64,000 nucleotides of DNA from Bacillota bacterium (lineage in GTDB: Bacteria > Bacillota > Sulfobacillia > Sulfobacillales > Sulfobacillaceae), in assembly GCA_021799435.1 (NCBI GenBank), contig JAJZAN010000004.1, positions 1 to 64,000 of the forward strand, read 5' to 3'. Numbering within the stretch: position 1 is the first letter of the stretch; each line of letters starts with the position of its first letter. A program made the position numbers and the translations under genes. The notes beneath the pieces are model-generated. The model was not told the origin of the DNA. It worked only from the letters and a program-made list of their open reading frames with translations, and did no database searches. Positions 28,000 to 35,299 of this stretch are shown in pieces.

Positions 28000-29916
28000 A
28001 TGGCAACAGCAGTACAAAAGCGCCGTGTTCGCCTGACGACACCATTGGTTCGCATCGACGGCGAGCTTAAGCCGGCGACGTGGGAGCAAGCATTGCGACG
28101 TGCCCAGGAATTGTTCCAGCCACTGATTTCGGAATCGAGCGGTGATGCCTTAGCCGTGTTCAGCTGCTCGAAATCAACGAACGAATTAAATTATTTGGCG
28201 TCTAAGTTTGCCCGGGCGGTATTCCGTACCAACAACGTGGATTCTTGCAACCGGACCTGACACGCTCCTTCGGTCGCGGGTCTCGCGGCTGTGTTTGGGA
28301 GCGGTGCCAGCACCAGTTCCTATGAGGAGTTTGAGAACACCGACCTCATTTTGTTGGTGGGGTCCAATGCGGCGGAAGCGCACCCGATTATCTTCCATCA
28401 CATGATGAAGGGCGTGCGCAAGGGGGCCACTTTGGTGGTGGTAGACCCGCGCCGCACGCTCACGACCAAGCGTGCCCACGAACATCTGCAAATCGCGGTG
28501 GGGAGCGACATCGCCCTGATAAATGCCATGATTCATGTCATTTTGCGGGACGGATTGGAGCACCGGGAGTTCATCAACCGTGCCACCAGCAATTTGGATG
28601 GGTTGAAGGCATCGGTTAAGGATTGGACTCCGGAGCGGGCGGAAGCCATTACGGGCATTGAGGCCTCTCGCATTGAGGCGGTTGCCCGGGCGTACGCACA
28701 GGCCCCGCGAGCCATGATTGGGTGGACCTTGGGCATCACGGAGCATCACAATGCGGTCGACAATGTCTTTGCCCTTATCAATCTGGCATTGGTGACCGGT
28801 CACGTGGGACGGTATGGATCGGGATTGAACCCTCTGCGGGGACAAAACAACGTCCAGGGAGGCGGCGACATGGGGTCGCTGCCCAATCGCTTGCCTGGAT
28901 TCCAGGACATTACTAATGCGGACGTGCGAGCGTCGTTTGAACGAGTGTGGGGTGTGCCTATCTCCGGAAAGCCTGGGTTGAACCAGTCGGAAATATTTGA
29001 GGGAATGGCCAACGGTACCGTACGGGGCCTCTATGTGATTGGCGAAAACCCGGTGGAGTCGGAAGCGAATCAGCACCACGTGCGACAACTATTCCAAGAT
29101 TTGGAAGTCCTGGTGGTGCAGGACATTTTCCTCACCTCCACGGGAGAACTTGCGGATGTGGTATTCCCGGCCCGGGTCTCGTTTGCGGAGAGCGCCGGAA
29201 CCTATACCAACAGCGAGCGCCGCGTGCAGTTGGTTCAACCAGCCCGGACAGCCCCGGGGGAAGCCCAAGACGACATCTGGATTATCACGCAGTTGGCCAA
29301 CGCCATGGGTGCCCAGTGGCCGATGTTGGATGCCGAAGGGGTCTTCGACGAGATGCGCCATCTGGCCCCCAATTTCCGTGGCATGACCTATGCCCGAATC
29401 CGCGAGCTGCACGGCTTGCAGTGGCCCTGTCCGGACGAATCACATCCTGGCACCCTGGTTCTGCACAGCCGTCTGTGGGACGACCAGGTTGCCGCCAAAG
29501 CGCCATTTCATGCGGTGGATTGGGATCCGCCGGTGGAGACGCCGGATGCCGATTATCCCTTCTTGTTGACGACCGGACGGCGTTTGGCCTTTTTCAACAC
29601 CGGTGTCCAGTCCAACGTCTATGACCATCCCCACAAGGTCGGTGAGTGGATGGAGATGAACCCGGCTGATGCCGACCGGCTTGGAGTTGACGACGGCGAC
29701 CTGGTCGAGGTCGGGTCGCGGCGCGGACAGTTAACCGTGGGCATTCGACGCTCGCATGCGGTTAAACCCGGAGTGGTGTTTTTAACTTTCCATTTCCCGG
29801 ATCATGTGAAGACCAACGTGCTGTCCATCGACGCCACTGACCCGAAGTCGGGAACAGCTGAATTTAAGGCGGCCGCCGTGCGGATCGCCAAAGCGGAGGC
29901 AAAGAATGCGGACTGA
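28000..29916 (+). CDS. Formate dehydrogenase catalytic (Mo/W-bisMGD) subunit, selenocysteine-containing, lacking the N-terminal Fe-S segment
   Basis: ORFs 27955-28260 and 28291-29916 are one frame; TGA 28258-28260 in context NNVDSCNRT(U)HAPSVAGL; SECIS-like hairpin directly downstream. Confidence 0.9.
28261..28303 (+). promoter_or_regulatory. Bacterial SECIS element
   Basis: CGCTCC(28263-28268)/GGAGCG(28298-28303) outer stem, GTCGCG(28273-28278)/CGCGGC(28284-28289) inner stem, apical loop GGTCT 18 nt after the TGA. Confidence 0.85.
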
Positions 29917-30325
29917 AACGGAGCAACAGGTGCGGTCCATCTTAGAAGGTATGCCCCGCGAGCGGGCCTCTCTCCTGCCTGCCTTGTGGACAGTGGTGGA
30001 CCAAATGGGTTGGGTTGACCAGGAGAGGATGGAAGCGGTGGCGGCCGTTTTGAATCTCCCGGTCGCCGACGTTTATGGCGTGGCGTCATTTTACGCCATG
30101 CTGCCATCCGACGGCCGCACCCAAGTTCGGGTGTGCGACGATGTGCTGTGCCATCTGGCGGGGAGTGAGCGCCTCCTGGACGCGGTGCGTGCACAAGGCT
30201 TGGACGCGGTGGCGTGGCCCTGCTTGGGGCGGTGCGATCAGGCACCGGCGGCGTTGGTCAACGCAAGTCCGGTGGTTCGGGCGACGGCCGAGAAGGTCCA
30301 GCGGGCCGCGCAGGGAGGGGAATGA
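29906..30325 (+). CDS. NuoE/FdsG-like 2Fe-2S subunit of formate dehydrogenase
   Basis: VCDDVLC ... PCLGRC cysteine pattern; GVASFYAML; operon position. Confidence 0.88.
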   Translation: MRTETEQQVRSILEGMPRERASLLPALWTVVDQMGWVDQERMEAVAAVLNLPVADVYGVASFYAMLPSDGRTQVRVCDDVLCHLAGSERLLDAVRAQGLDAVAWPCLGRCDQAPAALVNASPVVRATAEKVQRAAQGGE

Positions 30326-31545
30326 GCATGCGCGAATATCGATTGCTGCCGCCGGAGTCGGTTCGGTCGCATCCGGCCAGCTACGAACGCCTAGTGGAGA
30401 GGGGCTTCGAGCGAGCCCTGAACCGTACCCAGTCTTTGAGCCCGAAGACCATCATCCAGGAAGTGAGCGATGCGGGTATATTGGGCCGAGGGGGAGCCGC
30501 CTTTCCCACCGGACGCAAGTGGGCCAGTGTGGCCGAGGCGCCCTTTCGTCCCAAGTACGTGGTGATGAATGCGGACGAAAGCGAACCGGGTACCTTTAAG
30601 GACCGAGTGTTGTTGATGGATGACCCTCTGGGCGCGCTTACCGGAATGATTATTGCGGCACGGGCGGTGGGAGCCCACAAAGGGTACGTATACATTCGCG
30701 GGGAGTATCAGGATGTGGAGGCGCGGGTGGCGGAGGCGCTTCGGATGCTTGAGACGCGCGGATTTCTCGCCGATGGCCTGACCATTGAAATTCGGCGCGG
30801 TGCTGGCGCCTACATTGCAGGCGAAGAAACCGCGTTGTTCAATTCCATTGAAGGTCGGCGGCCAGAACCTCGCGTAAAGCCGCCCTTTCCCACCGTGCAC
30901 GGCTTATTCGGCAAACCCACGCTGATTCAGAACGTGGAGACATTGGCCAATGTCGCGGTGCTATTGAGCGAGAGCGTGCAGTGGTTTCGCGAAAAGGGCA
31001 CGGACAGGACGCCCGGCACCAAGCTGGTGTGCCTAAGCGGGGCTGTCCAAAACCCAGGGGTTTACGAAGTGGCCTTTGGGGTTCCCTTGAAAGAGATTCT
31101 GTTTTCTGAGGAACTGGGCGGCGGTCTGGCATCGGGGCGGGCGCTCCGGGCGGTCCTGTTGGGGGGGGCGGCCGGCACCTTTTTAACGCCGCAAGAGTTG
31201 GACGAGGTGCAGTACGACTACCCATCGCTGCGAAGCATCGGAGCCAGCATTGGCTCGGGAGCGGCCATGGTTTTTGACGACACGGTCGCGTTGGAAGACG
31301 TGTTGAAGCTCTTGGCGCACTTCTTCGCCGACGAGTCGTGTGGGCAGTGCGTGCCGTGCCGAGTGGGAACGCGGCGGATGATGGAGATTTTGGAGAGCCC
31401 CGATGGATTTGATGATGCCGAAAGGCTTCGGGATCTAGGCCGGGCCATGCAGGATGCGTCTATTTGTGGATTGGGCCAGACAGCACCCTTGGCACTATTG
31501 TCCTACATGGATCGACCGACTTTATGGAAAAGGAGTGCGGTCTGA
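30322..31545 (+). CDS. NuoF/FdsB-like NADH-binding FMN/4Fe-4S subunit
   Basis: GRGGAAFPTGRKW, NADESEPGTFKDR, GAGAYIAGEETALFNSIEGRR, ESCGQCVPCRVGT. Confidence 0.94.
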   Translation: MSMREYRLLPPESVRSHPASYERLVERGFERALNRTQSLSPKTIIQEVSDAGILGRGGAAFPTGRKWASVAEAPFRPKYVVMNADESEPGTFKDRVLLMDDPLGALTGMIIAARAVGAHKGYVYIRGEYQDVEARVAEALRMLETRGFLADGLTIEIRRGAGAYIAGEETALFNSIEGRRPEPRVKPPFPTVHGLFGKPTLIQNVETLANVAVLLSESVQWFREKGTDRTPGTKLVCLSGAVQNPGVYEVAFGVPLKEILFSEELGGGLASGRALRAVLLGGAAGTFLTPQELDEVQYDYPSLRSIGASIGSGAAMVFDDTVALEDVLKLLAHFFADESCGQCVPCRVGTRRMMEILESPDGFDDAERLRDLGRAMQDASICGLGQTAPLALLSYMDRPTLWKRSAV

Positions 31546-32393
31546 TGGCGGATATCACACTCACCATTGACGGTGTCCGGGTGACGGTTCCGGAAGGTAG
31601 TACCGTCCGGGAGGCCTGCGGGCAGTCGGGGGAGGCCCCGCCGGTTTTGTGCTTTCACGATAACTTGACACCAGCCAACGCTTGTCGCGCTTGTGTCGTG
31701 GAAGTAGAGGGCAGCCGGGCGCTGGTGGCGTCGTGCAGCCGCAAGGCCGAACAGGATATGGTGGTCCACACCCAGTCGGAGCGGGTGTTGAACGCCCGCC
31801 GGGTGGTCGGAGAACTTCTGGCCTCCACTTCCGATGTCAGCTTGGCTCCAGGGGTTCAGGACCTCCTCTCGCAGAACGCGGGCGATCCAGCTCGGTACCG
31901 TACCGGCGCCACCTGGGAGCAGCAGGTTTTGGATGACAATGGGCTTTACGTGCGGGACTATGCCAAATGCATTTTGTGCTACCGCTGTGTGGAAGCCTGT
32001 GGAGAGGATGCACAGAATACGTTTGCGATTACCGTGGCTGGGCGAGGATTTGAAGCGCACATTGACGCGGGTTTTGGACGGTCTATGCCGGATTCGGACT
32101 GCGTGTTCTGCGGCAACTGCGTGGCGGTCTGTCCTACGGGAGCGCTTATCGATCGATCCGAATATACACTTCGTCAGACGGGGGCGTGGCAGGAGGAGGC
32201 TGTCAGCACCACGGAGACGGTCTGCTCGTATTGCGGAGTCGGCTGTGACTTGGAGCTTCATGTGCTCGACAATCGGATCGTAAAGGTTACCTCGCCCATG
32301 GATCATCCGGTTACGCATGGAATGTTGTGCGTCAAGGGACGGTACGCCTACCAGTACGTGCAGATCGAGGACGAAATGCCAGAACGCGCGTAA
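31545..32393 (+). CDS. Formate dehydrogenase N-terminal module as a separate protein (NuoG-like 2Fe-2S, 2x[4Fe-4S] and Mo-enzyme 4Fe-4S segment)
   Basis: CFHDNLTPANACRACVVEV, CILCYRCVEAC, CVFCGNCVAVCPTGAL, then ETVCSYCGVGCDLELHV...GMLCVKGRYAYQYV and stop. Confidence 0.92.
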   Translation: MADITLTIDGVRVTVPEGSTVREACGQSGEAPPVLCFHDNLTPANACRACVVEVEGSRALVASCSRKAEQDMVVHTQSERVLNARRVVGELLASTSDVSLAPGVQDLLSQNAGDPARYRTGATWEQQVLDDNGLYVRDYAKCILCYRCVEACGEDAQNTFAITVAGRGFEAHIDAGFGRSMPDSDCVFCGNCVAVCPTGALIDRSEYTLRQTGAWQEEAVSTTETVCSYCGVGCDLELHVLDNRIVKVTSPMDHPVTHGMLCVKGRYAYQYVQIEDEMPERA

Positions 32394-32425: not shown

Positions 32426-32926
32426 ATGGCCGAACAGGTCCCGGATTTGTCTTTGGTGCGCCGACTGAAAGCCAAGGGGCGATACGAGGAAGCACAGCGG
32501 CAGCTCGCGATTTGGCTGGAGAGCGATCCGGACAGTCCACGGCTGCTCTTCGAGATGGCTTTGGTTTTAGATAATCAAGGACGGGAAAAGGACGCTATTT
32601 CCTATTATGAGGCGGCCCTGGCGGGCGACTTGGATCCGGCCCATCGCGTGGATGCCCTGTTGGGCTTGGGGTCGAGTCTGCGCGTTGTGGGCCGCACCCA
32701 TGATTCGCACCGGGTCATGGCTGGGGCCGTGGAAGAGTTCCCGCATCATGTGGGCCTCAAAGTGTTCTATGCCCTGACATTGGAACAGATGGGGAACTTT
32801 GGCGACGCCATTTCTCTGCTCTTGGACATCATCGCGGACAGCGGTCGGGCGGAGTCTTTGGACGCCTACCGACCAGCACTCCGCTATTACCGCGACCACC
32901 GTCACGATTTTCGATCGGAGACTTAG
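32426..32926 (+). CDS. TPR-repeat protein
   Basis: Tandem TPR-like helices (RYEEAQRQLAIWLESDPDSPRLLFEMALVLDNQGREKDAISYYEAAL). Confidence 0.75.
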   Translation: MAEQVPDLSLVRRLKAKGRYEEAQRQLAIWLESDPDSPRLLFEMALVLDNQGREKDAISYYEAALAGDLDPAHRVDALLGLGSSLRVVGRTHDSHRVMAGAVEEFPHHVGLKVFYALTLEQMGNFGDAISLLLDIIADSGRAESLDAYRPALRYYRDHRHDFRSET

Positions 32927-33555
32927 GACACCACCCGCGCCACGGTCAGACCATCGCCGATGGGAAGAATGAGACTTTGAAGACGCGGATGGTCCGCCGC
33001 GTGCTGGTTGAATGCGCGAATGGCCTCCACGGCCGGACTGGTTATCTCCGGATCCAGCACCCGGCCGCCCTGCAGGGTATTGTCCGCCGTGATAATGGCG
33101 CCAGGACGCGCCAAGCGCACGGCATAGTCGAGGTAGATGGGATAGTTGTCCTTGTCTGCATCGATGAAGAAGAAGTCAAAGGTGCGGCCCTCATCCTCGA
33201 GCTGGGCCAGACTCTCGGCCGCCGGACCCACGCGGTAGGCAACGCGGTCCTTGAACCCGGCGCGGGTCAAATTGGCCAGAGCGACGTCCCGATAGTCAGG
33301 ACGAAGTTCCAATGAGGTCAGAGTGCCTCCGGCTGGCAGAGCACGGGCCAGCCATATGCCGGAGTACCCGCCTAATGCGCCAATTTCCAGCACATCCCGA
33401 CTTCCCGAAACTTGGATGAGCCAATTCAAGGCCGCTCCGGTCACGGTGGGAACGAAAATGGCGGGCATGCCGCGTTCCACGATGCCCGCCTTAACCATCT
33501 TCAAAATGTCGTCTTCGTGCACAAACACCTGATCGAGATACTGGTCAAAATTCAT
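32923..33555 (-). CDS. O-methyltransferase (SAM-dependent, COMT/CCoAOMT-like family 3)
   Basis: VLEIGALGGYSGIWLARALPAGGTLTSLELRPDY, FDFFFIDADKDNYPIYLDYAVRLARPGAIITADNTLQGG. Confidence 0.9.
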   Translation of the reverse strand: MNFDQYLDQVFVHEDDILKMVKAGIVERGMPAIFVPTVTGAALNWLIQVSGSRDVLEIGALGGYSGIWLARALPAGGTLTSLELRPDYRDVALANLTRAGFKDRVAYRVGPAAESLAQLEDEGRTFDFFFIDADKDNYPIYLDYAVRLARPGAIITADNTLQGGRVLDPEITSPAVEAIRAFNQHAADHPRLQSLILPIGDGLTVARVVS

Positions 33556-33588
33556 GCGCAGCTCCCTTCTGCTGGACAGGGCCCATGG

Positions 33589-34227
33589 CTAGGATTTTCG
33601 CATCAACTCCAAGACTTCCCGCCGCAATTCCGGCTGGGTTTGGAATGCGCCGCGGGCAGCGGTCGTGATGGTCTTGCTGCCAGGCTTTTGAATCCCCCGC
33701 ATGGACATACACAAGTGCTCTGCCTCAATCATGACGAGTGTTCCCGATGCCTGCAAGGCCTCGCTCAAAGTTTCCGCAATTTGATTGGTTAGGCGTTCCT
33801 GGACTTGCGGCCTTCTTGCGTAAGCCTCCACCAATCGGGCCAGCTTGGAGAGACCGGTCACCTCGTGGTTTTGGGGCAGATAGGCGACATGCGCTGTGCC
33901 GAAGAATGGCAGAAGATGATGTTCGCACGCGGAATAAAAGGGGATGTCTTTCACCAGCACCACCTCTTCGTGATCCACGTGAAACCGGGTGTCCAGAACA
34001 TCGGCCGGATTCATAGACAGTCCAGAAAAGATTTCTGCGTACATACGAGCGACGCGCGTGGGCGTGTCCACCAACCCTTCGCGGGTTGGGTCTTCGCCCA
34101 CGGCTTCTAATATCATTGTCACCGCTTGGGCGATCTTGGCCTGATCCACCGGACCTGCGGACAATGTTTCGGCGAAGTTCCAGGACTCCTGGTCCGCCAC
34201 GTCGTTGGTGAGCTTGCTATCAGCCAT
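33589..34227 (-). CDS. folE: GTP cyclohydrolase I
   Basis: [39 protein letters not shown]. Confidence 0.96.
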
Positions 34228-34285
34228 GCTGTCGCCTTCTCTCTCTTCGGTAAGAATTGCATGCTTGAATGGTTGTTCCTACTTC

Positions 34286-35299
34286 CTACCCGCCAATGCG
34301 GAACATCTCCACTTTGGGAAGGGAAGTCGTGCGTTCAGAACGCTCCTCAGAATATCGGACGTTTCTCGCCCGCCAAATGTTAACAATCTGTGCCCGGATC
34401 TCATCGTCGGTGGCGCCGTCCCTAAGGGGGGTACGCAAGTCGTATCCCCGCTGACCAAATAGACACAGATACAGTTGGCCCTCGGGAGATAGACGAGCCC
34501 GCGAGCAAGCGCCGCAAAACGGCTGGGTCACCGAGGTAATGACACCAAATTCGCCGCCGCCGTCGAGATACCGATAGCGGCGCGCCACGTCGCCGGGACG
34601 GTCGGGATCCACGGGTTCGATGGGCCACTCGCGGCTGATGCGCTCAACAATCTCTTGGGCAGGAACCACATCATCCATTCGCCACCCATTGGCGGTGCCG
34701 ACATCCATGTACTCGATGAAGCGGAGAACCTGTCCGGTATGGCGGAAATGGCCAGCCATGGCCACGACGTCTTGGTCGTTGACACCACGCTTGACGACCA
34801 TATTGATTTTGACTGGCGTCAAACCGGCCTCGGCGGCCGCTTGAATGGCGTCTAGGACCCGATTGACCGGAAATCCTACGTCATTGATGGACTGAAAGAC
34901 CTCATCATCGAGGGAGTCTAAGCTGATGGTGACGCGATGAAGCCCAGCTTCAGCAAGCTTCTTGGCGCGATCTGGGGTTAACAGGGCGCCGTTGCTGGTC
35001 ATAGCAATATCGTCGATGCCATCGATGCCGTGGAGCCTTTCAATTAAGGTGTCCAAATCGCGGCGCACCAACGGTTCTCCACCTGTGATGCGCAGCTTGT
35101 GTACGCCCAAGTCCCGAAAAATAGCTGCCAGGCGCGCAATTTCTTCGAACGTCAACAGCTCTCGGCGGGGCAAAAAGGCAAACGAGGGACCAAAGACCTC
35201 TTTAGGCATGCAGTAGACGCAACGAAAATTGCACCGGTCCGTGACCGAGATGCGCAGATCATGCAACGGGCGCTTCAGCGCATCGACCAATTCCGCCAT
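34286..35299 (-). CDS. moaA: GTP 3',8-cyclase MoaA
   Basis: ISVTDRCNFRCVYCMP, LRITGGEPLVRRD, C-terminal FCGACSRARLSPEGQLYLCLF. Confidence 0.96.
   Translation of the reverse strand: MAELVDALKRPLHDLRISVTDRCNFRCVYCMPKEVFGPSFAFLPRRELLTFEEIARLAAIFRDLGVHKLRITGGEPLVRRDLDTLIERLHGIDGIDDIAMTSNGALLTPDRAKKLAEAGLHRVTISLDSLDDEVFQSINDVGFPVNRVLDAIQAAAEAGLTPVKINMVVKRGVNDQDVVAMAGHFRHTGQVLRFIEYMDVGTANGWRMDDVVPAQEIVERISREWPIEPVDPDRPGDVARRYRYLDGGGEFGVITSVTQPFCGACSRARLSPEGQLYLCLFGQRGYDLRTPLRDGATDDEIRAQIVNIWRARNVRYSEERSERTTSLPKVEMFRIGG

Follow-up and report, generated by a model that had tools for sequence, protein, structure and literature searches.

In this study we describe a four-gene operon that very probably encodes one soluble, nicotinamide adenine dinucleotide (NAD)-linked formate dehydrogenase (FDH) of the FdsABG kind, a selenocysteine (Sec) enzyme whose alpha subunit would consist of two separate chains. 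The operon occupies positions 28000-32393 (plus strand) of the window, i.e. the whole 64,000-nucleotide stretch of DNA analysed here (contig JAJZAN010000004.1, from a member of the Sulfobacillaceae). Its genes follow one another in the order C-E-F-N, in which C and N denote the catalytic C-terminal and the iron-sulfur-carrying N-terminal halves of alpha, while E and F denote NuoE-like and NuoF-like diaphorase subunits. Judging from related loci, it is likely that the operon represents a clade-wide class of FDH in which the Mo/Sec site and the proximal 4Fe-4S cluster reside on different polypeptides and the first electron step crosses a subunit interface, and that this class arose by an operon rotation that cut the catalytic gene within its FdhF-like region.

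The first-pass annotation of this region had proposed that an alpha polypeptide was cut and that its halves were placed at opposite ends of the operon, which is borne out by the reading frames and coordinates. The gene of the C half (28000-29916; 638 amino acids (aa), with molybdopterin domains) starts with the ATG at 28000, preceded by a good ribosome-binding sequence (GGAGGGG), and ends with the stop codon at 29914-29916. The E gene (29906-30325; PF01257), coding for a NuoE/FdsG-like 2Fe-2S subunit, starts within the end of the C-half gene and shares an ATGA overlap with the F gene (30322-31545; PF01512 and PF10589), whose product is a NuoF/FdsB-like subunit for flavin mononucleotide (FMN), NAD(H) and a 4Fe-4S cluster. 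The F/N junction is a TGATG overlap at 31543-31547, and the N-half gene (31545-32393; 282 aa) extends from the ATG at 31545 to the TAA stop codon at 32391-32393. All four genes are encoded on the plus strand and form one compact operon.

Pfam analysis of the C half detected Molybdopterin (PF00384) and Molydop_binding (PF01568), but not Molybdop_Fe4S4 (PF04879). The latter was found in the HoxU-like N half (a Fer2, two Fer4 and the Mo-enzyme 4Fe-4S domain), together with Fer2_4 and Fer4 pairs. Unlike in FDHs of the MopB/DMSO reductase superfamily, the proximal 4Fe-4S domain is thus located on a chain other than that of the bis-molybdopterin guanine dinucleotide (bis-MGD) domains. The NCBIfam model Fdh-alpha (TIGR01591) is covered by both halves together and by neither alone: the N half matched model positions 1-53 (54.1 bits) and the C half positions 49-672 (653.8 bits, below the family cut-off of 666.25). 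The C half scores just under the curated cut-off, and the N half may be read as NuoG. In alignments with the single-chain FdsA of Rhodobacter capsulatus (RcFdsA, 6tg9_A), residues 2-277 of the N half correspond to residues 23-308, and residues 11-632 of the C half to residues 308-934. The alignments meet at RcFdsA residue 308, so the two halves tile without gap or real overlap, as the first-pass annotation had anticipated.

The position of the cut agrees only in part with the domain boundary that had been suggested. The first ~250 residues of RcFdsA have been likened to HoxU, which places the usual boundary between HoxU-like and FdhF-like parts at about residue 250 (PMC7171172). The cut described here lies at about residue 308, i.e. 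~58 residues further on, and falls after the Mo-enzyme 4Fe-4S domain. The joint of fused relatives has a sequence like CVKGRFGYxFIHHPDRLTxPLI, whereas in the split clade the N half ends shortly past the motif CVKGR(Y/F)(G/A)(Y/F) (CVKGRYGY) and the C half starts shortly before RLTxPL; in the window it begins 10 residues ahead of RLTTPLVR. The ends of the two chains would meet at the right place if a split intein or a comparable mechanism joined them after translation into a single chain like FdsA, but they leave no room for intein-like or sortase-like tags, and we regard such joining as very improbable.

The distribution of the arrangement was analysed in 34 genomes of the family and in wider searches covering the order, the class and the phylum Bacillota; outside Bacillota the searches covered plasmid records only. 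Of the 34 family genomes, 26 had both the N and the C half, and the remaining 8 had neither. The order C-E-F-N was observed in all 42 intact four-gene loci of the clade (the window and the locus of Sulfobacillus harzensis were each counted once). These are distributed among 39 genomes, of which 22 belong to the family, a further 4 to the order, a further 11 to the class and 2 to a second Bacillota class; the arrangement thus occurs in Sulfobacillus and in some relatives that branch deeply. Among them are the isolate S. harzensis and the finished genome of S. acidophilus DSM 10332 (G021; chromosome of 3,472,898 bp; PMC3558970). The first-pass annotation had named misassembly as a possible source of the gene order, and the genome of the window is indeed a 228-contig assembly. 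However, the identical order in S. harzensis, S. acidophilus and ~36 more genomes refutes an artefact of assembly or sequencing, while the cluster ligands and Sec, intact throughout, argue against a decayed locus, so that we assign a negligible probability to either.

Across the order, the class and the phylum, homologues of the C half form two sets. Those of the split clade display 54-100% identity, mostly with frames of 640-760 aa, whereas those at ≤52% identity are fused genes (frames of ~900 aa or more) or proteins of FdhF size. Among the listed matches in plasmid records there was no C-half match above ~44% identity and no member of the split clade. Two kinds of frame of unusual length were also considered. 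Clostridial N-half frames of ~355-370 aa, taken as candidate split genes, proved to be fused genes interrupted at the Sec UGA codon. Conversely, C frames of 948-1133 aa in genomes G230 and G350 were rejected as fused genes, as N is located downstream there too. These two genomes, as well as G588 (met only in the C-half search and lying outside the 39 genomes), are likely members of Limnochordia; an FDH has been reported in three Limnochordales genomes (PMC11456536). Several genomes (G027, G029 and G017) have the split operon in two or three copies (L100, L113; L103, L111; L108, L110). In another genome (G016; L075:7380-7953) a C-half fragment (residues 13-52) is directly followed by part of an N half (residues 132-281), the N match containing in-frame stops; this is probably what a deletion has left of a second C-E-F-N copy.

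All 16 ligand cysteines of clusters A1, A2, A3 and A5 are present in the N half of the window. This agrees with the first-pass listing of a 2Fe-2S site, two 4Fe-4S sites and the Mo-enzyme 4Fe-4S site, which had missed the absence of A4. The 2Fe-2S and CxKG motifs are kept in all split N halves aligned. The A1 ligands (Cys227, Cys230, Cys234 and Cys262) are all on the N half, as is Lys264, which we take to correspond to the relay lysine in Escherichia coli FDH-H. The C half carries the active-site motifs, namely the Sec-His pair (U87-H88) and the arginine motif PLRGQNNVQG. The His-ligated A4 motif, HxxxCxxC(x)nC, was found in none of the 42 split N halves in the alignment, although it is present in every fused relative aligned across the whole N region; it is also absent from the HoxU-like protein (U) of Caldinitratiruptor microaerophilus (locus L097), which is encoded by a separate gene. 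In the R. capsulatus enzyme (RcFDH) the direct electron path runs A1-A2-A3-A5-B6, and A4 lies off this path at the dimer interface (PMC7171172), so the path to FMN would remain intact in the split enzyme. By analogy with RcFDH, the dimer contact via A4 has probably been lost.

The C-half reading frame contains a single in-frame TGA (28258-28260, plus strand), which corresponds to Sec87 in the context NRT-U-HAPS; Sec is found at the active site in each of the 42 intact split loci, all of which have a single in-frame TGA accompanied by a SECIS-like hairpin. Just 3' of this codon, at 28263-28303 (plus strand), single-sequence folds predict a putative bacterial Sec insertion sequence (SECIS) hairpin with a GGUCU apical loop. 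It resembles the SECIS elements of bacterial fdhF genes, and changes in its stem are compensated among relatives (as judged by eye from single-sequence folds). The genome of the window also encodes tRNA-Sec(UCA), SelB and the FDH maturation protein FdhD, and thus the C half combines the in-frame UGA, SECIS-like hairpin, SelB and tRNA-Sec by which bacterial selenoproteins are recognized. Two tRNA-Sec genes were detected in this assembly (G000), on contigs C169 (L009) and C72 (L010), which may reflect either two copies or contamination (estimated at 3.76%).

A different interpretation of the same genes is that N is a stand-alone NuoG-like or HoxU-like carrier serving another complex, while C is a cluster-poor FDH that feeds some other acceptor directly. 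HoxU-like subunits recur as shared components of hydrogenases, and a stand-alone protein of N-half type, with Fer2, Fer4s, the Mo-enzyme 4Fe-4S domain and a stub beyond RxxxPFV, was identified in genome G385 (L073:5939-6880, minus strand), where no catalytic half, E or F was found nearby. In the split clade, however, the relay lysine and the Mo-enzyme 4Fe-4S domain are both on N, whose gene belongs to the operon in every one of the 42 intact loci and within the family is found only in genomes that have C. Moreover, the genome of the window possesses its own fused NuoG (C125). We therefore consider a separate carrier improbable. No other FdhA of the FdsA type, which the first-pass annotation had considered as a possible alternative user of E and F, was found in the assembly of this genome.

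In the two-chain FDH that we favour, the N and C halves would assemble in trans, and because they are conserved they may be expected to adopt the usual fold. The C half would oxidise formate at its Mo (or W)-bis-MGD/Sec centre, and the electrons would cross the C-N protein interface, by way of Lys264, to cluster A1 of the N half. Still within the N half they would then pass through A2, A3 and the 2Fe-2S cluster A5, from which they would reach F, with its 4Fe-4S cluster and FMN, for the reduction of NAD(P)+, while E would hold a side 2Fe-2S cluster. Several points weigh against this interpretation. The complex and its formate:NAD+ activity are predicted from the genes, the NAD specificity of F is predicted from homology, and an AlphaFold model of the N half (based on a 3-sequence alignment) reached a predicted local distance difference test (pLDDT) score of 36. 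Within the clade, the pairwise distances of N correlate with those of C (r of 0.88 for the ferredoxin part and 0.73 for the A1 domain), as would be expected for jointly inherited parts, but shared descent alone also predicts such a correlation.

Fused relatives mostly display the orders E-F-[NC] or F-[NC]-E, with single cases of [NC]-F-E and [NC]-E. The order C-E-F-N shares its cyclic order with the two common arrangements, which points to a rotation, presumably of an E-F-N-C order, in which the break fell within the catalytic gene; tandem duplication followed by loss of the ends would yield this result. The Fe4S4 and catalytic domains appear once to have formed one chain, because they are fused in the other FDHs seen. 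To this extent the earlier claim of one ancestral polypeptide is supported; this ancestor may, but need not, have had the full length of FdsA.

The trees also allow a mosaic history, in which an E-F-U module with an unfused U, like that of Caldinitratiruptor, acquired the Fe4S4 domain of an FdhF-type enzyme, the remainder of which became the C half. In the ferredoxin tree the N halves form one group (support 85/53) that adjoins the unfused U of L097, the joint group being supported at 100/100, and both lack A4. In the C-half trees the split sequences group, again at 100/100, with L090, an FdhF-type protein with its own 4Fe-4S domain; furthermore, U and FdhF are separate genes in L097. On the other hand, L097 forms a long branch, L090 (G522) is truncated by a contig end and its placement as sister to the split clade or inside it is weakly separated (approximately unbiased test, p-AU 0.63), and the A1 domain, at 54 aa, does not suffice for placement. 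We give the mosaic scenario a somewhat less than even chance; it rivals the rotation only as an account of history and leaves the working mechanism unaffected.

The C. microaerophilus locus itself (L097:2460-6841; G519; PMC9933637) is an E-F-U-FdhF operon with a second, different split point, in which U and FdhF share a reading frame and are separated by a TGA stop codon, with a ribosome-binding sequence and a GTG start. It resembles the split clade in having a separate HoxU-like protein without A4 and adjacent NuoE and NuoF genes. It differs in that the break precedes the Mo-enzyme 4Fe-4S domain, leaving A1 and the Mo site on one chain, in carrying Cys instead of Sec, and in its gene order.

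Comparison with other known systems revealed further partial parallels. FdsABG (R. capsulatus FdsGBACD; PDB 6tg9; PMC7171172) is composed of the same homologous parts, with the same predicted electron path, but its alpha subunit is a single chain of 958 aa, whereas the split clade has two chains parted by E and F, a rotated operon order, Sec in place of Cys, and no A4, the dimer-interface cluster of FdsABG. The Sec enzymes of the FdhF/FDH-H type (including FdhF of the hydrogen-dependent CO2 reductase, 7qv7_S; 1aa6) have Sec and a SECIS of the same kind, and 7qv7_S is the closest PDB sequence to the C half. FdhF keeps its own N-terminal 4Fe-4S domain, however, while in the split clade another gene encodes this domain, as a fusion with a HoxU-like protein. 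The ferredoxin-rich N-terminus of NuoG is well known as a subunit of its own, i.e. HoxU of hydrogenases. HoxU is not known to carry the Mo-enzyme 4Fe-4S domain. A molybdopterin catalytic chain is also split in two in formylmethanofuran dehydrogenase (FwdB/FwdD), but there the C-terminal domain is detached and the proximal 4Fe-4S cluster stays with the active site; a split of the C-terminal domain has also been noted for Methanothermobacter wolfeii (PMC7171172).

The operon of the window is followed on the same strand by a gene for a tetratricopeptide repeat protein (32426-32926), which is also present in L007 and was not seen in S. harzensis (L008). Further downstream, on the opposite strand (32923-35299), are genes for an O-methyltransferase, folE and moaA (molybdenum cofactor).

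A cytoplasmic Sec-FDH of Sulfobacillus has been described as "syntenous" with NuoEFG homologues (Justice et al. 2014; PMC4378227), and those genes are evidently the genes of the split clade. In the available part of that paper the "NuoG" is not recognized as the N-terminal portion that the FDH lacks, nor is a permuted order mentioned. In line with the first-pass annotation, which knew of no account of this arrangement, we found no description of a split FDH alpha in the available portions of the open-access literature, including PMC8808070, PMC13397495 and PMC10100899.

FDHs are regarded as sharing a conserved core, a bis-MGD chain that carries its own proximal 4Fe-4S cluster (PMC7171172). In the split clade two genes share the coding of this core, and they do so in many bacteria, among them acidophiles in culture that are used in bioleaching. 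Such an enzyme would provide a naturally bipartite FDH in which to study the assembly of the cluster with the Mo/Sec site, and its separable catalytic chain may be usable in work on CO2 reduction. If the rotation proposed here is correct, the operon would be a clear case in which a change of gene order cut a gene and persisted.

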